In this document: piece by piece, positions 5,228 to 14,865 of the stretch
Position numbering within the stretch: position 1 is the first letter of the stretch
Layout: every line of letters begins with the position of its first letter
Assembly (NCBI GenBank): GCA_944388215.1
Contig: CALXHT010000001.1
Location: forward strand, 1-64,000
From: an uncultured Gemmiger sp.
GTDB lineage: Bacteria > Bacillota > Clostridia > Oscillospirales > Ruminococcaceae
Direction of reading: 5' to 3'
Length of the DNA stretch: 64,000 nucleotides
Notes under the pieces: generated by a model
Databases searched by the model: none
Told to the model about the DNA's origin: nothing
What the model saw: only the letters and a program-made list of their open reading frames with translations
Position numbers and translations under genes: made by a program

Positions 5228-6547
5228 TCAGTCAGCCAGTACCAGATAGGAGAACGCCCGGCGGTACACTTCGGCGGCCTGCATCAGTTTGATGAGGGAG
5301 ACCCGCTCATTGGGCTGGTGCTCGGTGGTGGGGCTGTGGGGCATGTTGGCCCCGAAGGCCACGCAGTTGTCAAAGGCGCGGGCAAAGGTGGCGCCGGCCG
5401 AGATGTAGGGCTCGGTTCTGGCGTCGCCGGTCACCTCCCGGTAGGCCTGGAGCAGTTTGGATACCAGGGGACTGTTCAGCGGCACATGGATGGGCCGCAG
5501 CCAGTCGAATTCCTCCACCGTCAGGTGGTAGGCGGCGGCCTTCTCCCGGATGATCTGGAGGACCTCCTCCTTTTCCAGCGTCACCGGCAGGCGCAGGTCC
5601 AGCCCCAGTACGGCGCCCTGCTCGCCCAGCGTGAACTGGCCCAGGTTGACCGTCACCGGCCCCGAAAAGTCCGACAGATCCCGGTCGGTGAAGCCCTCGA
5701 AGCGGAACTTGCCGTCCAGCACGTCGCAGGCAAAAGCGATGGCATCATGCTGGTACCCGGCCTTGCCCAGGGCGCGCAGCAGGTTCAGGTTGGCGCTGAC
5801 CCCCTTCCAGGGATTCTTGGCGTGGGCGGTCAGGCCCTCGGCGCAGACCTGGGTGTCCGTCACATGGAAGGGCAGTTCCAGTTCCTCCAGGGCGTGCTCC
5901 ACCGCCTCGTTCCGGGGACATTCGGCGTGGGAGGATACGGCGTTCATGCTGTCGCCGCCGCTGCAGGCCAGGGCAAAGGGCTTGTCCGAGCGGACCTTCA
6001 GCTGCAGCAGCCCCTTCTCGGCGTAGGTGAGGGGGAAGGTGGAGTCCGGCACAAAGCCGCTCACCGGCAGTTCCTCCCGTTCGCAGTAGGCGTGGATGGA
6101 ATGCCACATGGTCTCCTCGTCGATGCCGAAGATGAACCGTACCCGCTTGTTCAGTGTATGGCCCTCATCCAGCAGCGATTTGAGGGCAAAGACGGCGGCC
6201 ACCGTGGGGCCCTTGTCGTCCTGGGTGCCGCGGCCGCAGAGCCAGTCCCCCTGCACCATGGGGCGGAAGGGATCGTGGTCCCAGCCGTCCTCCTGGCGGG
6301 CCTGCACCACGTCCAGGTGGCACAGCACACCGAACAGTTCGCCCTCACCGATCTCGGCATAGCCGTACAGACCGTCGGGGGCCTTGAAGGTGCGGAAGCC
6401 CAGGTCCTTCATCATGGAGAGGGTAACATCCAGGCAGTGGTCCACCGCGGGACCGAAGGGAAAGTCGGGACTTTCGGCAAAGACCGAGGGAATCTCGACA
6501 AGGCGGCTGATGGCAGCGATCATCGCGGCCCGATAATTGTTCATCAT
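5228..6547 (-). CDS. M20 family metallo-dipeptidase (PepV/Sapep type)
   Basis: A 439-residue cytoplasmic zinc peptidase likely to cleave dipeptides. Metal and catalytic motifs are in order: CHLDVV, GRGTQDDKGP and DEETMWHS. A lid domain insertion follows, and the C-terminal ISAGATFAR and AFGANMPHSPTTEHQPNE segments complete the active site. Start 6547 is preferred over an upstream codon because AGGAG lies nine bases before it and homology starts here. A divergent YfcC-type transporter gene lies opposite, which suggests peptide or amino-acid uptake and breakdown. Confidence 0.9.
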   Translation of the reverse strand: MMNNYRAAMIAAISRLVEIPSVFAESPDFPFGPAVDHCLDVTLSMMKDLGFRTFKAPDGLYGYAEIGEGELFGVLCHLDVVQARQEDGWDHDPFRPMVQGDWLCGRGTQDDKGPTVAAVFALKSLLDEGHTLNKRVRFIFGIDEETMWHSIHAYCEREELPVSGFVPDSTFPLTYAEKGLLQLKVRSDKPFALACSGGDSMNAVSSHAECPRNEAVEHALEELELPFHVTDTQVCAEGLTAHAKNPWKGVSANLNLLRALGKAGYQHDAIAFACDVLDGKFRFEGFTDRDLSDFSGPVTVNLGQFTLGEQGAVLGLDLRLPVTLEKEEVLQIIREKAAAYHLTVEEFDWLRPIHVPLNSPLVSKLLQAYREVTGDARTEPYISAGATFARAFDNCVAFGANMPHSPTTEHQPNERVSLIKLMQAAEVYRRAFSYLVLAD

Positions 6548-6596
6548 GGCAAAGCTCCTGTGGTTGAAACTTGTGCACAAACGTGCAGACAATAGC

Positions 6597-6625
6597 AGTA
6601 TAGCCTTTTGAGAAGATAATTGCAA
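6597..6625 (-). promoter_or_regulatory. Promoter of the dipeptidase gene
   Basis: On the minus strand TTGCAA (6620-6625) and TATACT (6597-6602) are spaced by exactly 17 bases, giving a leader of about 43 bases before the ATG at 6547. Confidence 0.7.
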
Positions 6626-6750: not shown

Positions 6751-8268
6751 GTGGAAAAACAGAAGAAAAAGACCATCCAGATGCCGCACACCTATGTGAT
6801 CATCTTTGCGGTGGTGGTCGTCTGCGCGCTGCTGACCTACCTGATCCCGGTGGGCAGCTTCCAGACGCAGGACATCAGCTACATGGTGGGGGACACCGAA
6901 AAGACCCGCACCGTCATTGTGGCGGACAGCTTCTCCTATGCGATGGATGAAGCTGGCAACCGGGTACGCAACGGCGTGCCGCTGTTCGGCACCGAGGACT
7001 TCGGCGGCCAGGGCATGCTCAACTATGTGTTTGAGGGCCTGACCTCCGGCGACAAGTCCGGCAGTGCGGTGGGCATTGTGGCCTTCATTCTGGTCATCGG
7101 CGGTGCCTTCGGCATCGTCATGCGCACCGGCGCGGTGGATGCGGGCATCCACGCTATGATCCGCCGGACCAAGGGCCGGGAGATCATCCTGGTCCCCGTG
7201 CTGTTCACCCTCTTTTCGCTGGGCGGCGCGGTCTTCGGCATGGGCGAGGAGGCCATCCCCTTCGCCATGGTCATTGTGCCGCTGACCATCGCCATGGGCT
7301 ATGACGCCGTGGTGGCCGTCTGTGTGACCTACGGCGCCACCCAGATCGGCTTCGGCACCAGCTGGATGAACCCCTTCGGCCTGGCCATCGCCCAGGGCAT
7401 CGCCGGGGTGCCGGTTCTGTCCGGTGCCGCCTTCCGCATCGTCATGTGGGCGGTCTTCACGCTGGCCGGCATCGCCTTCACCATGGTGTATGCCCGCAAG
7501 ATCAAGAAGAATCCCCAGCTCTCGGTGGCCTATGAGAGCGACGCCTATTACCGCAACCAGATGTCCAAGTCTGACGGCGAGGCAGTGCCCTTCACGCTGG
7601 GCCAGGCCCTGGTGCTGCTCAGCGTGCTGGCCACTATCGTATGGACGGTGTGGGGCGTGGTGACCCAGGGCTACTACATCCCGGAGATCGCCTCCCAGTT
7701 CTTCGTGATGGGCCTGGTGGCCGGCATCATCGGCTGCATCTTCCACCTCAACGGCATGCGGCCCTCCGACATGGCCTCCTCCTTCCAGAGCGGCGCCGCC
7801 GACCTGGTGGGCGCGGCTCTCGTGGTGGGCATGGCCCAGGGCATCGTCATCGTGCTGGGCGGCACCGATCCCACCACCCCCAGCGTCATGAACACCATCC
7901 TGTACACCCTGGGCAACCTGCTCAGCGGCGTGCCCGGTGTGCTGGCGGCCTGGCTTATGTATGTCTTCCAGAGCCTGTTCAACTTCGTGGTGGTCTCCGG
8001 CTCCGGGCAGGCGGCCCTCACCATGCCCATCATGGCGCCGCTGGCCGACCTGGCCGGTATCACCCGGCAGGTGGCCGTGCTGGCCTACCAGCTGGGCGAC
8101 GGCCTGACCAACCTCATCGTGCCCACCTCCGGCTGCCTGCTGGGCGTGCTGGGTGTGGCCCGTCTGGAATGGGGCAAGTGGGCCAAATTCCAGATCAAGA
8201 TGCAGGGCATGCTCTTTGTGCTGTCCACCATCTTCGTGGTGGTGGCGGTCATGATCGGTTTCGCCTGA
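6751..8268 (+). CDS. YfcC-family membrane transporter (DcuC-like superfamily)
   Basis: A 505-residue integral membrane protein with about 12 hydrophobic segments. It starts with a short basic N-terminus and a PHTYVIIF...LTYLIPVGSF first helix typical of YfcC proteins. Further matches are the LGGAVFGMGEEAIPF and YGATQIGFGTSWMNPF blocks. YfcC proteins are thought to move amino acids, short peptides or organic acids; the substrate is not proven. The GTG start has an AAGGA site five bases upstream. The divergent M20 dipeptidase supports a role in peptide or amino-acid handling. A strong terminator follows. Confidence 0.82.
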   Translation: MEKQKKKTIQMPHTYVIIFAVVVVCALLTYLIPVGSFQTQDISYMVGDTEKTRTVIVADSFSYAMDEAGNRVRNGVPLFGTEDFGGQGMLNYVFEGLTSGDKSGSAVGIVAFILVIGGAFGIVMRTGAVDAGIHAMIRRTKGREIILVPVLFTLFSLGGAVFGMGEEAIPFAMVIVPLTIAMGYDAVVAVCVTYGATQIGFGTSWMNPFGLAIAQGIAGVPVLSGAAFRIVMWAVFTLAGIAFTMVYARKIKKNPQLSVAYESDAYYRNQMSKSDGEAVPFTLGQALVLLSVLATIVWTVWGVVTQGYYIPEIASQFFVMGLVAGIIGCIFHLNGMRPSDMASSFQSGAADLVGAALVVGMAQGIVIVLGGTDPTTPSVMNTILYTLGNLLSGVPGVLAAWLMYVFQSLFNFVVVSGSGQAALTMPIMAPLADLAGITRQVAVLAYQLGDGLTNLIVPTSGCLLGVLGVARLEWGKWAKFQIKMQGMLFVLSTIFVVVAVMIGFA

Positions 8269-8299
8269 TCCTGTTCCCAACACCGGAAGACCGGTTCCA

Positions 8300-8342
8300 G
8301 GAGGCGTTTCTCCCCGCGGGGAGAAACGCCTCCTTTTTCTTT
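8300..8342 (+). terminator. Strong Rho-independent terminator after the transporter gene
   Basis: A perfect 16-bp stem (8300-8315 with 8318-8333) with a two-base centre is followed by TTTTTCTTTT. Confidence 0.92.
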
Positions 8343-8462: not shown

Positions 8463-8491
8463 TTGATTTCCTAGTGCTTTTATAGTAGAAT
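8463..8491 (+). promoter_or_regulatory. Promoter of the M60 peptidase/cohesin-like operon
   Basis: TTGATT at 8463-8468 and TAGAAT at 8486-8491 are separated by 17 bases. About 100 bases of very AT-rich DNA with A- and T-tracts lie upstream in an otherwise GC-rich region, a possible UP element. The start codon is about 60 bases downstream of the expected start site. Confidence 0.6.
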
Positions 8492-8558
8492 GTGCGCTGC
8501 ACACAAGCAACCCAGCGCAGACTCTATGTGGGTCTGCCCAACGAAAGGACGGAATCAA

Positions 8559-11500
8559 GTGAAAAGAGCCATCGCCACCTTGCTGAGCAGCTGCATGCTG
8601 CTGGGCATCCTGGCCCAGGGCCCGGCCGCCCTGGCGGAAGAGATCTTCACCGCAGAGCCTGCTGTGCAGGCCGCGGAACCGGACGAGGCGCAGCCTGCGG
8701 CCAGCGCCACCGGGGAGACCGCTTCCCCCGAGGCGGAGTCTCCTGCCGACGAAGAGACGGCGGAGGAGAACGCCCCGGAACAGCTGGAGGAAGCAGTCCC
8801 GGCGGAGGAAGAGACCGAGACAGAGGAAGAGACAACCGGGGCGGAACAGGCCCCGGAGAATACGGCGGAAGTGGCCGTGACGCTGCTGACGGGTCTGCCG
8901 CTGCAGGGGAACGCCGACTTCACGGTGAGCCTGAACGGCCCCGAGGCACAGACCCAGTCCGTCACGCTGCCCGCCTCGGAGGGCAGTGAACCTGCCCGGC
9001 GTGAGGTGCGCTTCCGGGACCTGCCCCGGGGCCAGTACACCCTGACGGTGCAGGGCAGCGGCTTTGCCACCTACACCCAGACCCTGGAGGTGGGCACCCA
9101 ACTCTACAGCGTGCAGCTCTACACCGGGTTCCTGGCCGGCTACACCTACACGGCGGACAGCCTCCATCCCGGTGCCCTGCGCATCGGCGATGTGGACGGC
9201 GACGGCCAGCTCACCGACGGGGACGCCAGTGTTCTGATCGATGCCATCGAAGGGGGACAGGCCGGTGTGGCCGACCTGGACCGCAGCGGCGCGGCGGACC
9301 TGGTGGACCTGCAGATGCTGGCGGCCTCCCTGGAAGAGACGGGGGACGGCACTGCCTCGGTGCTGGTGCGGGTCCCCGAAAGCCTGATGGCTCTGGAGAA
9401 AGAAAAATCCACCCAGGTGGTCAGCGGCAGTCTGGAGGATCTGCTCACCGGCGACAGCGCCGTGGCGCTGAAGCCCGCCGACGGTGCCGCCATCTCGGAG
9501 GAAAACCCCGTCACGGTCAGCTTTGACTTTGAGAAAGCGGCCAAGGCGGCGGTGCCCATGGCCGGTATGGTGCTCCAGACCCCGCCCGCAGCGGAGAACG
9601 CTGTCAGCGGCGCCACCGTGCTGGTGGAGTACGAGGAAGACGGCGAGACAAAGACCATGCCCATCACGGTGGGCGGTTCGCTGATCGCCCGCTTCCTGGG
9701 GGCGGCCACCGTGCAGCCCGACGGCTCCATCGCGGTGGACTTCGGCGGCCAGATCGCCGTCAAGAAGGTCACCATTAAAATTACGGCGGTTTCGGGGGGC
9801 GGCAGCCTGGCGGAAATCTCCCAGGTGGAATTCCTCAACGATATGGAATCCCGCATCCCGCCGCCCTCCATGGACATCCCCACCGGCCTTGCGGCCGAGG
9901 CGGAAAGCCAGGCCTTCACACTGACCTGGGAACCGGCGGTGAACGTCACCGGCTATGAGGTGGAGATCACCTTTGACGGAAAGACCGAGACGGTCCGCAC
10001 GGCGGCCAACACGCTGGCGGTGACCTCCTTCGGCGGCGAGAAACTGCAGAACAGCAAGACCTACACCGTGCGGGTGCAGTCGGTGAACGGCGGATGGCGC
10101 AGCGGCTACAGCGAGGCCATCACGCTGGTGCCCAAGGCGGACAAACTGCCCGCCGCCCCCGACGCCCTGCGCCTGACCGGGCGGTTCCAGCGCATCGAAG
10201 CCTCCTGGAAGGACATGAAGGACACCGACAGCTACAATGTCTACTACCGCAAACAGGGGGATGCCGACTTCACCAAGGTGGCCGGCATCGACCAGAACAG
10301 CTACACCATCCAGAGCCTGGAAAACAATACCGTCTATGAGGTGTACGTCACCGGCGTCAACGAGCTGGGCGAAGGTCCCGCCTCGCTGACCTCCACGGCG
10401 TCCACGGCCAATGTCAGCCCGGTGAAGCTGCCTGCCTACAGGCTCATCAACACGGTGGGCGCGGCAGGGGAGGTCACGGCGCACATCGCGTCGGTGACCC
10501 ACGAGGCCGGCTACATGAAGGACAGCCCGCTGGATTCCGGCAAGACCGCCTGGGGCGTGGTGGACAACGACTTCACCTCCTGGTACGGCCTGGACGACTG
10601 GGACGACGGTGCCGCCTACCCCGACAACGGCGGTGTGCGCATCACCTTTGACGCCCGCTACCACATCGGCAGCCTGTCGCTGTCCCCCTCGGAGGACCGG
10701 GGCACCTACGGCAATGTGCGCCTGTTCGCCCGCGGGGAGGATGGCCGTGAATACCAGGTGCCCGGCGTGACCATCGCCAAGCACAGCGACGGCAGCCAGA
10801 ACTACTACACCATCAAGATCCCCGGCGGTGTCACCACCGATTACCTGCGGGTCTGTGTGGGATACATCTATAATAACCGCCCCATCTCCATCTCGGAGAT
10901 GCGGTTCTACACCTACGACAGCCTGGAGGATGACATCCTGGCCCTCTATGCCGACGACCTGCATGTGACGCTGCGCGACAGCGTGGACGAGCAGACCATC
11001 GAGGCGCTGCAGACCCGCCTGGACACCCCCGACGAGGCCAGCGGTGAGCTGCATACCGAGCGGGAGGCCCTGCAGAAGGAGCTGGACAACGCCCGCGGCC
11101 TGCTGACCACCGCCCTCAGCGATGTGGTGGAGGTGCATACCGCCATCACGGCCAAGAAGGACGGTCACCTGGGCTTCACCGGGCTCAACGCCTGGCAGCC
11201 TCTGGGCGTCACCGCCAGGGCCGGGGAGGAGATCATCGTCTATGTGGGCAGCAGCAATGTGGCCACCGGCGCCAACGCCTGGCTGCAGCTGGTAGCCACC
11301 CAGTACAACTCCGAATCGGGCGAGGTGGTCTCCCAGCCCATCCAGCTCAAGGTGGGCCGCAACGAGATCATGATCCCCGAGCTGGTCACCTTTGACGCCG
11401 AGCACGGCGGTGCCCTCTATGTGCAGTATACCGGCAACAGTGCCAATGACCGCTACTCGGTGCGGGTCAGCGGCGGGGAAACCATCCCTGTGCTGGACCT

Positions 11501-13787
11501 CTACGGCATCGACGACCCGGCCCAGCGCAAGGAGCGCGTCACCGCCTACGTGGCGGCCCTGGAAGCGGCGGCCGACAGCTTGAACAGCCGTCACGACGAA
11601 CTGCACGGCGACCACGGCGCCTATGAGGCCGGGACCTGCATCCTCAACACCACCGACGTGCTGCTGGATCAGATGATGTACTCGGTGCCGGTCAGCCAGC
11701 TGCTGGCGGGTCTGGGCAGCGGTTCCACGGCCGACAAGGCCGCCCGCCTGCTCAGCTCGGTGGACGCCATGGACCAGATGATGGTCCTGTTCTACCAGCA
11801 CAAGGGCCTGACCGACCTGGCCGGGGCAGGGGACAAGAACCGTCTGCCCTCCCAGCACCTGAATATCCGGTATATGCGGATGTTTGCCGGCGCCTTCATG
11901 TATGCGGCGGGCAACCACATCGGCATCGGCTGGGATTCGGTGCCCGGTCTGGGCGGCGGCGAGCCCATCACTCTGCATGAGGATGGCAGCTATCGCAGCG
12001 GCGACCTTTTCGGCTGGGGCATCGCCCACGAGATCGGCCACAACATCAACCAGGGCAGCTATGCCGTGGCGGAAGTCACCAACAACTATTTCTCCCAGAT
12101 CTCCCAGGCCCACGAGGGCGTCCGCTTCGGCTACGACGCCATCTACAGCAAGGTCACCAGCGGCACCACCGGCCATTCCAGCGACGTTTTCACCCAGCTG
12201 GGGCTGTACTGGCAGCTGCACCTGGCCTACGACAAGGGCTACGAGTACGAGATCTACAGTAATTACGACGAACTGTTTGCCAGCCGTTTCTATGCCCGGG
12301 TGGATACCTACGCCCGGAACACGGCCCAGGCTCCGGCCCCCGGCGGCGTCCAGCTGGCGCTGGGCGGGGATGCCGACCAGAACTTCATGCGGCTGGCCTC
12401 GGCGGCGGCCCAGAAGGACCTGACGGACTTCTTTGTCCGCTGGGGCATGATGCCCGATGCCGCCACGGCGGCCTACCTGGCCCAGTTTGAGCCGGAGACC
12501 CGGGCACTCTACTACGGCAACGACGCCTCCCGCAACTACCGCTTCACCCACAGTGAGAGCAGCAGCTTCGCGGGCAAGGCCGTGTTGGCCGACAGCACCG
12601 CCGCCGTGTTGGACGAACGCACCCCCAACCAGGTGAACCTGACGCTGGGCTGTGACGCCGGCGACCTGCTGCTGGGCTACGAGATCGCCCGCATCACCTG
12701 GGAGAACGGCCAGGCCACAACCGAGGTGGTGGGCTTCACCACCGGCAGCCACTACACCGACACGATCACCACCGTGAACAACCGCACCATCGCCTACCAG
12801 ATCACGGCGGTGGATCAGTTCCTGAACCGTTCCCAGCCGATGACGCTGCCCGCTGTGAAGATCAGCCATGACGGCAGCTACGACAAGAGCCTGTGGACGG
12901 TGACCACCAACATGACCTCGGCCGATGACACCATCCCCGATGCCGGCGAGCAGGATCCCTGCGAGCCGGAACCGGTCTCGGCCATCAGCCGGGTGGTGGA
13001 CAACAACAAGAACACCACCTACACCGGCCGTGCCGACGGCGAGGCGGTCATCACGCTGAACTTCGGCAAGACGCTGGCCGTGACGGGACTTAAGTACACC
13101 GTCACCGGGGGCACGCCCATCCGGGACTACGAGATCCAGATCCCGGCGGCGGAGGGCGGCTGGCAGACGCTGGCCACCGGCACCTTTACGGGCGGCGAAG
13201 TCAGCACCGTCTACTTCCGCAACGAGAACAACGACCCCTGGGTCTGCACCTACGACGCGGCCCAGCTGCGGCTGGTCGTCAAGGCACCCGCCGGTGAAAT
13301 TTCCGTCAGCGAGCTGGACGTGCTGGGCCCCACCGGCGACAACGTGGAGCTGCTGTCCAGCGGCATCGGCACTCTGTCGGCGCCCTATGTCTATGAAGAG
13401 AGCACCGGCCAGGCCATCCCCGAAGGTTCGCTGGTCTTCACCGGCAGCTACAAGGGCAACCCTGCCTACAACGTGGTGCTGCTCTATGACGAGAACGGCA
13501 ACGTGGTGGGCGGCGTGGACGCCGAGGGCAGCATTGTGGCCCACCAGATCATTCTGGCGCCCGACCCGCAGAACGGCCAGCTGGGCGAAGTCAGCGAAGG
13601 CCACTGGGTCTACTGGATCGGACCCCAGGATCTGGAAGGCATGACGATGCCCGAAACCGTGCGGGTGGAACTCTACCGCGTGGACAACGCAACGACCAAC
13701 GAGGGCCAGCGCCTGACCAGCGATACGCTGGCGGTGACGATGCCCGATCCGCTGCCGTCCCTGACCATGGGCAGCCAGGCGGACTGA
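8559..13787 (+). CDS. Secreted multidomain M60-family metallopeptidase with a dockerin
   Basis: A 1742-residue exported protein. Residues 1-26 are a signal peptide; 30-100 are a Glu/Ala-rich acidic stretch; about 105-205 is a beta-rich module. A dockerin spans about 207-262 with two calcium loops, DVDGDGQLTDGD (211-222) and DLDRSGAADLVD (239-250). A beta-sandwich, possibly discoidin-like, covers 270-430, two fibronectin III domains 437-620 and an F5/8C-like domain 628-786. The M60 (enhancin) domain contains HEIGH at 1157-1161 and the third zinc ligand E1172, matching HEXXHX(8-24)E. Another F5/8C-like region lies near 1460-1590. M60 enzymes commonly cut mucin-type glycoproteins, so mucin is a likely but untested substrate. 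There is no LPXTG or transmembrane anchor. The GTG start has AAAGGA nine bases upstream. Confidence 0.88.
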   Translation: MKRAIATLLSSCMLLGILAQGPAALAEEIFTAEPAVQAAEPDEAQPAASATGETASPEAESPADEETAEENAPEQLEEAVPAEEETETEEETTGAEQAPENTAEVAVTLLTGLPLQGNADFTVSLNGPEAQTQSVTLPASEGSEPARREVRFRDLPRGQYTLTVQGSGFATYTQTLEVGTQLYSVQLYTGFLAGYTYTADSLHPGALRIGDVDGDGQLTDGDASVLIDAIEGGQAGVADLDRSGAADLVDLQMLAASLEETGDGTASVLVRVPESLMALEKEKSTQVVSGSLEDLLTGDSAVALKPADGAAISEENPVTVSFDFEKAAKAAVPMAGMVLQTPPAAENAVSGATVLVEYEEDGETKTMPITVGGSLIARFLGAATVQPDGSIAVDFGGQIAVKKVTIKITAVSGGGSLAEISQVEFLNDMESRIPPPSMDIPTGLAAEAESQAFTLTWEPAVNVTGYEVEITFDGKTETVRTAANTLAVTSFGGEKLQNSKTYTVRVQSVNGGWRSGYSEAITLVPKADKLPAAPDALRLTGRFQRIEASWKDMKDTDSYNVYYRKQGDADFTKVAGIDQNSYTIQSLENNTVYEVYVTGVNELGEGPASLTSTASTANVSPVKLPAYRLINTVGAAGEVTAHIASVTHEAGYMKDSPLDSGKTAWGVVDNDFTSWYGLDDWDDGAAYPDNGGVRITFDARYHIGSLSLSPSEDRGTYGNVRLFARGEDGREYQVPGVTIAKHSDGSQNYYTIKIPGGVTTDYLRVCVGYIYNNRPISISEMRFYTYDSLEDDILALYADDLHVTLRDSVDEQTIEALQTRLDTPDEASGELHTEREALQKELDNARGLLTTALSDVVEVHTAITAKKDGHLGFTGLNAWQPLGVTARAGEEIIVYVGSSNVATGANAWLQLVATQYNSESGEVVSQPIQLKVGRNEIMIPELVTFDAEHGGALYVQYTGNSANDRYSVRVSGGETIPVLDLYGIDDPAQRKERVTAYVAALEAAADSLNSRHDELHGDHGAYEAGTCILNTTDVLLDQMMYSVPVSQLLAGLGSGSTADKAARLLSSVDAMDQMMVLFYQHKGLTDLAGAGDKNRLPSQHLNIRYMRMFAGAFMYAAGNHIGIGWDSVPGLGGGEPITLHEDGSYRSGDLFGWGIAHEIGHNINQGSYAVAEVTNNYFSQISQAHEGVRFGYDAIYSKVTSGTTGHSSDVFTQLGLYWQLHLAYDKGYEYEIYSNYDELFASRFYARVDTYARNTAQAPAPGGVQLALGGDADQNFMRLASAAAQKDLTDFFVRWGMMPDAATAAYLAQFEPETRALYYGNDASRNYRFTHSESSSFAGKAVLADSTAAVLDERTPNQVNLTLGCDAGDLLLGYEIARITWENGQATTEVVGFTTGSHYTDTITTVNNRTIAYQITAVDQFLNRSQPMTLPAVKISHDGSYDKSLWTVTTNMTSADDTIPDAGEQDPCEPEPVSAISRVVDNNKNTTYTGRADGEAVITLNFGKTLAVTGLKYTVTGGTPIRDYEIQIPAAEGGWQTLATGTFTGGEVSTVYFRNENNDPWVCTYDAAQLRLVVKAPAGEISVSELDVLGPTGDNVELLSSGIGTLSAPYVYEESTGQAIPEGSLVFTGSYKGNPAYNVVLLYDENGNVVGGVDAEGSIVAHQIILAPDPQNGQLGEVSEGHWVYWIGPQDLEGMTMPETVRVELYRVDNATTNEGQRLTSDTLAVTMPDPLPSLTMGSQAD

Positions 13788-13806
13788 GCACAACAAGGAG
13801 ACAATC

Positions 13807-14787
13807 ATGAAAAAATTTCTGGCCACCCTGCTGCTGGGCCTGGCCCTGACCGTGGCGGCGCTGCCCGCTGCGGCCGAGACCTCCGGCAGCCCGGTGACAT
13901 TGACGGCCACCGACGGGGGCGCGTCGGTCCGCCTGGACCTGCCCGCCGATACCGTGCAGGGCGTCAAGGCGCTGCGCCTGCGCTTCGCGGTGGAGAGCGC
14001 CGACCCCGTGGAGGCGAATTTCGCCTTTGACAGCGCGCTGCCCGGCAGCGTGCAGCAGTACCGTTACGATGCCGCCACCGGCACCATGACGGTCTACGTG
14101 GCCGGCGGGCAGGAGCTGTTCCCCCAGGGCACGGCTTCGCTGGGCAGCATTCAGGTGGATGTTCCGGCAGGCGGCACCGCCACGGTGCACCTGGTGGAAA
14201 ATTCCCTGGAACTGGTCAACGGCGCTTTCGGCCGCACCGAGGCCCCCGCGGTGGGGAATGTGTCGGTGGAGGTATCGGCGGCGGAGGAACCCCCGGCGCC
14301 CACTCCGACGCCTGACCCGAAGCCCACCCCGGCGCCCACCCAGACGCCGGCAGAAAAGCCCACCCAGCAAAACACGGCGGGGCAGCAGAGCGGCAACACC
14401 CAGAGCACCCAGTCCGCTTCCAACGCGGCTCCCACCGCCACGCCTGCCGCACCTGCGGCAACGGAGCAGGCCCCGGTCCCCTCCGCGGGCAGCGGACAGA
14501 CGGCGGCCTCCGGCAATTCCGGCGGCACCAAAAAGCCCGCCAAGGGCAGCGGCAGTGCCTCCACGGAGACCCGGGTGACCCCCAACCCCACCGAAGTCTC
14601 CGCCGCCACTGCCACGCCGGAGCCTGATGAGCAACCCGCCGTCACGCCGGCACCCGCCACCCCCGAACAGGCCGAAACGGCGGCCGCTTCCGCGATGAAT
14701 CTGCCGCTGGCGGCCCTGATCGCCGTGGCCTGCCTGGCCGTGGTGGTCCTGATCGGCATCGCGGTGATCCGTTTCCGCAGCCGATAA
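13807..14787 (+). CDS. Membrane-anchored protein with a cohesin-like domain
   Basis: A 326-residue protein. It has a signal peptide (1-24), a beta-rich domain at about 28-155, a long Pro/Thr/Ala linker (160-295) and one transmembrane helix (298-320) followed by a basic RFRSR tail. The beta domain follows the cohesin pattern: an opening VRLDLPADTVQGVKALRLRFAV, a central YRYDAATGTMTVYVAGG and then ASLGSIQVDVP. It starts 19 bases after the dockerin-bearing peptidase, with an AAGGAG site, and shares its terminator. I infer that it displays the peptidase on the cell surface through cohesin-dockerin binding. The fold call comes from pattern reading only; a generic carbohydrate-binding-like fold is the alternative. 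Confidence 0.6.
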   Translation: MKKFLATLLLGLALTVAALPAAAETSGSPVTLTATDGGASVRLDLPADTVQGVKALRLRFAVESADPVEANFAFDSALPGSVQQYRYDAATGTMTVYVAGGQELFPQGTASLGSIQVDVPAGGTATVHLVENSLELVNGAFGRTEAPAVGNVSVEVSAAEEPPAPTPTPDPKPTPAPTQTPAEKPTQQNTAGQQSGNTQSTQSASNAAPTATPAAPAATEQAPVPSAGSGQTAASGNSGGTKKPAKGSGSASTETRVTPNPTEVSAATATPEPDEQPAVTPAPATPEQAETAAASAMNLPLAALIAVACLAVVVLIGIAVIRFRSR

Positions 14788-14824
14788 CCCCCTGACGCAG
14801 TTCCCCACGGCAGTATACAAAAGC

Positions 14825-14865
14825 ACGACGCCCTCCCGATGCAAGCCGGGAGGGCGTCGTTTTTT
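14825..14865 (+). terminator. Terminator of the peptidase/cohesin-like operon
   Basis: ACGACGCCCTCCCG at 14825-14838 pairs perfectly with 14847-14860, followed by six T residues. Confidence 0.92.

Follow-up and report, generated by a model that had tools for sequence, protein, structure and literature searches.

How an exported protease that carries no anchor of its own might be held at the cell surface is the question raised by two adjacent genes of an uncultured Gemmiger sp. (NCBI GenBank assembly GCA_944388215.1, contig CALXHT010000001.1, positions 1 to 64,000 of the forward strand; this whole stretch of 64,000 nucleotides is the window). The first gene encodes an M60-type metalloprotease with a dockerin, and the second a membrane protein with a cohesin-like domain. 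A preliminary description, made without database searches, had read them as a cohesin-dockerin pair. Predicted structures support that reading, helped by adjacency, co-occurrence, fusion and anchor exchange, and it is highly probable that this pair of genes is a cohesin-dockerin device of one enzyme and one anchor. The features of the locus are as follows.

8299-8334: terminator-like hairpin at the 5' border of the two-gene unit (signal scan)
8463..8491, + strand: promoter-like site TTGATT-17-TAGAAT (consensus scan, 9/12 matches)
8559..13787, + strand: M60-type metalloprotease, putatively exported, 1742 residues from GTG (open reading frame, Shine-Dalgarno sequence, Pfam)
8865..9185, + strand: X-like beta domain preceding the dockerin, residues 126-232 of 1765 (AlphaFold2 model jointly with the dockerin)
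9186..9332, + strand: dockerin, calcium loops 234-245 and 262-273 of 1765 (Pfam Dockerin_1, conservation)
12027..12074, + strand: catalytic motif HEIGH...E, residues 1180-1195 of 1765 (pattern, conservation)
13807..14787, + strand: cohesin-like membrane anchor, 326 residues (open reading frame, Shine-Dalgarno sequence AAGGAG, signal peptide, linker, helix, orthologues)
13876..14280, + strand: cohesin-like beta domain, anchor residues 24-158 (AlphaFold2, Foldseek)
14281..14676, + strand: Ala/Pro/Thr-rich linker, anchor residues 159-290, borders approximate (composition)
14677..14784, + strand: C-terminal membrane helix and short basic tail of the anchor (hydropathy)
14825..14860, strand given as '.': terminator-like hairpin at the 3' border of the two-gene unit, with a T-run on both strands (signal scan)

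From the protease stop to the start of the anchor gene there are 19 bases, and the signal scan lists no terminator-like site between the two genes. The hairpins on either side (8299-8334 and 14825-14860) count as support for a two-gene unit, in a scan that gave nine sites in the region against 4.6 expected. The promoter scan gave four sites against 0.8 expected, and is alone no proof of function. The longest open reading frame of the protease runs from an ATG at 8490 to 13787 and encodes 1765 residues; the GTG at 8559, which is preceded by AAAGGA, gives 1742, and the frame of relative L034 begins opposite the residue of this GTG. Residues are numbered here in the 1765-residue frame, that is, the 1742-residue numbering of the preliminary description plus 23.

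Pfam Peptidase_M60 (PF13402) matches the protease at 45.3 bits (cut-off 25.8), over profile positions 126-275 only, and fn3 matches at 60.6 bits in two stretches. The pattern HExxHx(8,28)E is present, with HEIGH at 1180-1184 (1157-1161 in the shorter frame) and an invariant glutamate at E1195, so that the HEIGH and E1172 first reported for a 1742-residue exported protease are confirmed. Export is suggested by the signal peptide. Hydropathy exceeds the threshold solely in the signal region, which bears out the earlier view that the protein has no membrane anchor of its own. This protease is the sole M60 match in the source genome. Judged from M60 family membership only (main text of PMC3267712, on the M60-like/PF13402 family), its substrate is likely an O-glycosylated host protein such as mucin.

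At the N-terminal dockerin, Pfam Dockerin_1 (PF00404) passes its cut-off of 22.9 bits in the genome search, with 24.7 bits, and stays under it in hmmscan runs on the protease, with 18.5 and 22.4 bits. The assignment exceeds chance: in 87 of 103 relatives the corresponding part of the N-terminal alignment matches the profile at E<=0.01; this set leaves out frames shorter than 1500 residues and 11 duplicates or near-duplicates. Both calcium loops initially placed at 211-222 and 239-250 of 1742 (234-245 and 262-273 of 1765) are present. The second, DLDRSGAADLVD, is less canonical in the window protease, where a pattern scan missed it, and canonical in most aligned relatives. One earlier remark does not hold: a dockerin near the N-terminus had been called unusual, and it is instead the rule in this protease family, occupying the same place across the 103 long relatives.

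An AlphaFold2 model of residues 126-300, which covers the dockerin and the beta domain before it, has a predicted local distance difference test score (pLDDT) of 96.3 and a predicted template modelling score (pTM) of 0.91. Every one of the nine PDB chains that it matches at E<=1e-3 belongs to a type II cohesin/X-dockerin complex (seven entries, of which 4fl4 is a ternary cellulosome complex; template modelling (TM) scores of 0.51-0.55 by query length). Structure prediction of the dockerin region had been proposed as a check, and it thus favours the dockerin assignment. Because the joint model matches such chains only, the beta domain at 126-232, which is absent from the preliminary description, looks like an X module; the model packs it on the dockerin as in type II complexes, in a predicted X-dockerin dyad. 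CarboxypepD_reg matches the same domain at 30.8 bits, below its cut-off of 32.3.

The product of the second gene follows the layout described earlier: over 326 residues, a signal peptide leads into a beta domain of about 130 residues, a linker and a C-terminal membrane helix. Residues 158-298 are rich in alanine (31), proline (25) and threonine (23); 19-residue windows starting at 291-308 average above 1.6 in hydropathy, and the hydrophobic windows lie within 291-326. A similar Thr/Pro/Glu-rich linker and C-terminal helix are seen in another surface protein of the source genome, of 1053 residues (L044:2761-5922, on C2). AlphaFold2 models the beta domain, from an 11-sequence alignment, with a pLDDT of 88.2 and a pTM of 0.82. 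When this model was compared with the PDB by Foldseek, 18 of the 19 chains at E<=1e-3, at ranks 1-18, were or contained cohesins. They come from 14 entries, including the Clostridium perfringens cohesin-like modules 2jh2, 2vo8 and 2w1n. The window's domain, to which the prediction applies, is accordingly predicted to have a cohesin fold, and the earlier description of it as cohesin-like withstood this comparison.

Is the pairing of the two genes peculiar to this genome? Among 35 genomes of the genus (the source and one of the same species included), the protease occurs in ten and the anchor domain in the same ten. Across 396 genomes of the family, the protease (E<=1e-20) is found in 36, the anchor domain in 22 and both in 21; the remaining anchor, L100, lies at a contig end. 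Each of the 15 family proteases without an anchor match was inspected singly. One gene is cut by a contig end; all of the other 14 are followed by a gene whose product begins with a hydrophobic stretch and, if complete, ends in what looks by eye like a membrane-type C-terminal helix. The first domain of this second clade (a profile built from ten of the 14 loci and trimmed to that domain) matches the window family in hhalign at 85.8%, E 5.3e-6; one member, L211, is cut by a contig end. In a class sample of 226 genomes, the protease is present at E<=1e-20 in six besides the source, and in five of five loci fetched from these deeper relatives the neighbouring gene specifies a partner whose start, judged by eye, is signal-like. 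The loci fetched throughout do not include those of G276 (a pair in pieces on two contigs) and G639.

In named genomes, the best 80 of 336 protease relatives were kept, a set that consists of the nearest relatives; 79 are testable, L189 being cut by a contig end. A cohesin-like gene stands directly downstream in 78 of these 79, its domain starting 59-355 base pairs after the protease stop, and is fused to the protease in the other (L199). Since the search used the protease alone, the downstream neighbour is an independent finding. Conversely, in anchor-based searches the protease adjoins in 26 of 26 testable loci, window included and L100 again at its contig end; the two locus sets share ten contigs, judged by length. 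The named relatives include Gemmiger, Fournierella, Lachnospiraceae, Erysipelotrichaceae, Eggerthella and Gordonibacter; Gordonibacter is one of the Actinomycetota. In two loci (L086:4631-9918 and L088:3652-6528) the protease frame is interrupted, through sequencing error or decay, and the anchor gene is still next.

Beyond the pair, the flanks are not conserved: the largest family accounts for six of 60 upstream neighbours and for at most three of 63 on the other side, neighbours here being mechanical longest frames of at least 100 residues, some of them not real genes. Chance adjacency and long conserved synteny can both be rejected, as the pair is kept while the flanking genes vary. Tree distances of protease and anchor (n=81) correlate at Spearman 0.67, where the best of 500 permutations reaches 0.12; this agreement indicates joint descent, not contact.

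With the whole anchor as query, 24 of 100 genomes match; in 11, counting the source, the match covers the domain and scores strongly, and in the others it falls on the linker or tail. An initial contig scan with the anchor gave no match. On 20 loci (L014-L032, L043) the domain and protease profiles find nothing at E<=10, and two positive controls were found. In another family of the order, L023 (G081:C67:32462-32947) scores 20.6 bits to anchor residues 26-187; it is probably a low-complexity match, because neither domain profile finds it at E<=10.

What varies among the partners is the means of attachment. By simple rules, the 84 full-length partners have a hydrophobic N-terminus in 84 cases, a C-terminal helix in 74 and an LPxTG-like motif in five. 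The ten without a helix call comprise four with basic tails (in L140 after a visible helix), four with fn3/Big_2, one with nothing known (L184) and one with a dockerin (L098). This last partner (L098:4218-4880) has a dockerin of its own (28.5 bits) at the end where others have the membrane helix, in the manner of an adaptor scaffoldin. Three deeper relatives, L236, L237 and L238, are M60-dockerin proteases whose partner ends in S-layer homology (SLH) domains (81-114 bits); the first domain of these SLH-type partners, aligned with L239 and L240, matches the window domain in hhalign at 96.7%, E 3.6e-10. In the partners of L239 and L240 no recognised anchor was seen. A single frame at L199:8920-15216 runs from M60 protease through cohesin-like domain to a second dockerin (27.4 bits), with no C-terminal helix visible by eye. 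A first domain that stays constant while the attachment varies is a pattern fitting a socket. We consider it fairly probable that a widespread one-enzyme, one-anchor family, whose cohesins belong to a lineage missed by Pfam and NCBIfam, keeps M60 proteases at the cell surface in Bacillota and some Actinomycetota, with plug and socket retained and the attachment exchanged.

A socket could serve more than one plug, and the anchor might be a hub for several dockerin proteins in a small cellulosome-like complex. This is unlikely, though it fares best among the alternatives. Dockerin_1 has two matches in the source genome (assembly 88.8% complete), the protease and one small protein; the latter is also present in the same-species genome, and the dockerin-ended partner of L098, in another genus, likewise fits a hub. 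Only two matches in the source genome nevertheless make a sparse clientele, and dockerins in the genus are nearly confined to paired genomes: ten of the 35 have a match and nine of these have the pair, the profile having missed the dockerin of G025, which also has it. Moreover, a second cohesin-like domain match occurs in none of the 84 full-length partners (L093 has one weak partial second match). The second dockerin protein of the source genome (L001:1153-1947; dockerin at C6:83229-83396) has about 264 residues and scores 39.5 bits to Dockerin_1; inspected by eye, its start looks like a signal sequence and its N-terminus is reminiscent of the first cohesin strands, and it is a possible second client of the anchor. 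The sole genus genome with a dockerin match and no M60 pair carries it in a 680-residue frame (L242, G005:C7:43324-43503). In a genus-mate, a dockerin of 47 bits within a 2955-residue frame (L241, G004:C1:2009298-2009465) may mark another client.

Pfam Cohesin (PF00963) has no match in the source genome at E<=10. A full cellulosome or mucinolysome was rejected on two dockerin matches, no Pfam cohesin, one cohesin-like gene and no multi-cohesin scaffoldin. Few dockerins and no Pfam cohesin fit the minimal device, and the original proposal of a minimal scaffold rather than a large cellulosome came through the genome-wide dockerin search, which added one dockerin.

Several observations weigh against the cohesin-dockerin device, and they bear on two further alternatives. 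The first group concerns contact. In an alignment of 81 protein pairs (effective number 51), dockerin columns supply 13 of the top 500 covarying protease-anchor column pairs, 2.6% against 4.1% expected, and they stay under the expected share whichever of the six cut-offs is used. A test restricted to recognition positions gives p 0.009 for the top ten pairs and 0.38 on the mean; it counts for little, because it was chosen after the result of the first. The strongest dockerin coupling joins residue 251, in a helix, to residue 86 of the anchor, in a strand, presumably where a cohesin-dockerin interface would be expected from general knowledge of such complexes. In relative L165 the first calcium loop is degenerate. 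Adjacency and joint descent are silent on the site of contact, and joint inheritance would equally suit a second protein that acts on the protease as a membrane-held chaperone or inhibitor, its beta domain binding elsewhere than the dockerin; the lack of dockerin-specific covariation favours such a protein too. We nevertheless regard this as distinctly unlikely, given that a predicted X-dockerin and a predicted cohesin fold are standard binding partners and that the partners end in helix, SLH or dockerin modules, all of which are attachments.

The second group concerns the fold and the reach of the family. Structural matches between the anchor domain and cohesins have 9-18% identity and TM scores of 0.48-0.67 by query length; a p53 domain takes rank 19, and the matches that follow are other beta sandwiches, those above E 1e-3 including p53, pilin and adhesin domains and YcnI. 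Pfam Cohesin finds one of 88 related anchor domains, at E 0.012, so that the profile does not establish the family as cohesins (the alignment leaves out three of 91 full-length domains, L101, L164 and L186, and four partial ones of 95). It finds none of 12 second-clade partners at E<=0.1, and no NCBIfam cohesin model matches the anchor domain at E<=0.01. By sequence, the anchor retrieves no cohesin from the PDB, as a single protein or as 11-row and 88-row profiles; the second-clade profile yields, at E<0.01, 4yle (signal-peptide region, E 1.4e-4) and 5a2f (C-terminal part, E 0.0075), and no cohesin. The case for a homologous beta domain is weaker for the second clade, where hhalign gives 67.4% with untrimmed whole proteins against the 85.8% after trimming, and L207, L211 and L213 were placed by eye. 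That the domain is a generic Ig-like or carbohydrate-binding sandwich, with the dockerin serving another cohesin, is favoured by these other sandwiches and by the silence of the sequence profiles, and is very improbable in view of cohesins holding ranks 1-18, the genome offering no Pfam cohesin elsewhere at E<=10, and the anchor domain never occurring without a dockerin protease among the 35 genus genomes.

On the reading as a cohesin-dockerin device, both proteins would be exported, as their signal peptides suggest. The anchor would be held in the membrane by its C-terminal helix, the flexible linker lifting its single cohesin-like domain outward, and the anchor-free protease would dock there through the N-terminal X-dockerin unit, whose fold is predicted. 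Docking by the N-terminus would leave the catalytic and accessory domains facing outward, where the enzyme would likely act on an O-glycosylated host protein such as mucin. The pair appears to have been inherited as a unit in many Bacillota and a few Actinomycetota, while its attachment was swapped between membrane helix, SLH domains and a further dockerin. Directly upstream of the unit lie a likely M20-type dipeptidase (5228-6625, - strand) and a likely multi-spanning transporter (6751-8268, + strand), both named by eye from the list of open reading frames; these genes may have some tie to the uptake of peptides.

If the pair binds, a putative mucin protease would be fixed by plug and socket to the surface of many bacteria, and this placement would decide where a host glycoprotein is cleaved and which cells profit from the products. 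A compact cohesin-dockerin pair with a natural series of anchors would also be suited to testing how cellulosome-like assembly arose. M60 peptidases, dockerins in M60s, X-dockerins, cohesin folds and mucin-directed cohesin-dockerin complexes (main text of PMC12997984) are known already. Within the open literature searched, what is new, as far as shown, is the cohesin-like family missed by sequence libraries, its constant pairing with an X-dockerin-bearing enzyme and the exchange of anchors. No description of this protease-anchor pair appeared in the open literature among the matches listed, a scope outside which most subscription papers fall, so that this is not proof of novelty.

The 2012 survey of the M60-like/PF13402 family gave the same motif, HExxHx(8,28)E, and its table of domains that occur together with M60 already has Dockerin type 1 (2) and S-layer homology; the word cohesin is absent from its main text (PMC3267712). 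The Limousia mucinolysome is likewise a cohesin-dockerin assembly of gut Bacillota that includes dockerin-bearing peptidases, but combines numerous dockerin enzymes with multi-cohesin scaffoldins that Pfam cohesin detects, and has an LPxTG anchor; the main text mentions neither M60 nor Gemmiger (PMC12997984). The survey of cohesin-dockerin systems in that recent paper retained genomes in which Pfam detects both a cohesin and a dockerin. An anchor unseen by Pfam escapes this filter, and such genomes therefore seem to hold an orphan dockerin. The X82 cohesin/dockerin complexes of C. perfringens (main text of PMC12997984; 2jh2, 2vo8, 2w1n) also use single cohesin modules outside a cellulosome, although their cohesins are carried on glycoside hydrolases and not on a dedicated anchor encoded beside one client.

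In the type II cohesin/X-dockerin attachment of cellulosomes, an X-dockerin docks to the cohesin of a surface-anchored protein, as is proposed here, and some of the present relatives use SLH domains. Components of that attachment include SdbA and CipA. The systems differ in that the X-dockerin here sits on the N-terminus of the enzyme, with no intervening scaffoldin found, the cohesin-like domain is invisible by sequence, and the anchor in the window is a membrane helix. The family may show a cohesin-dockerin system before, or without, scaffoldins.

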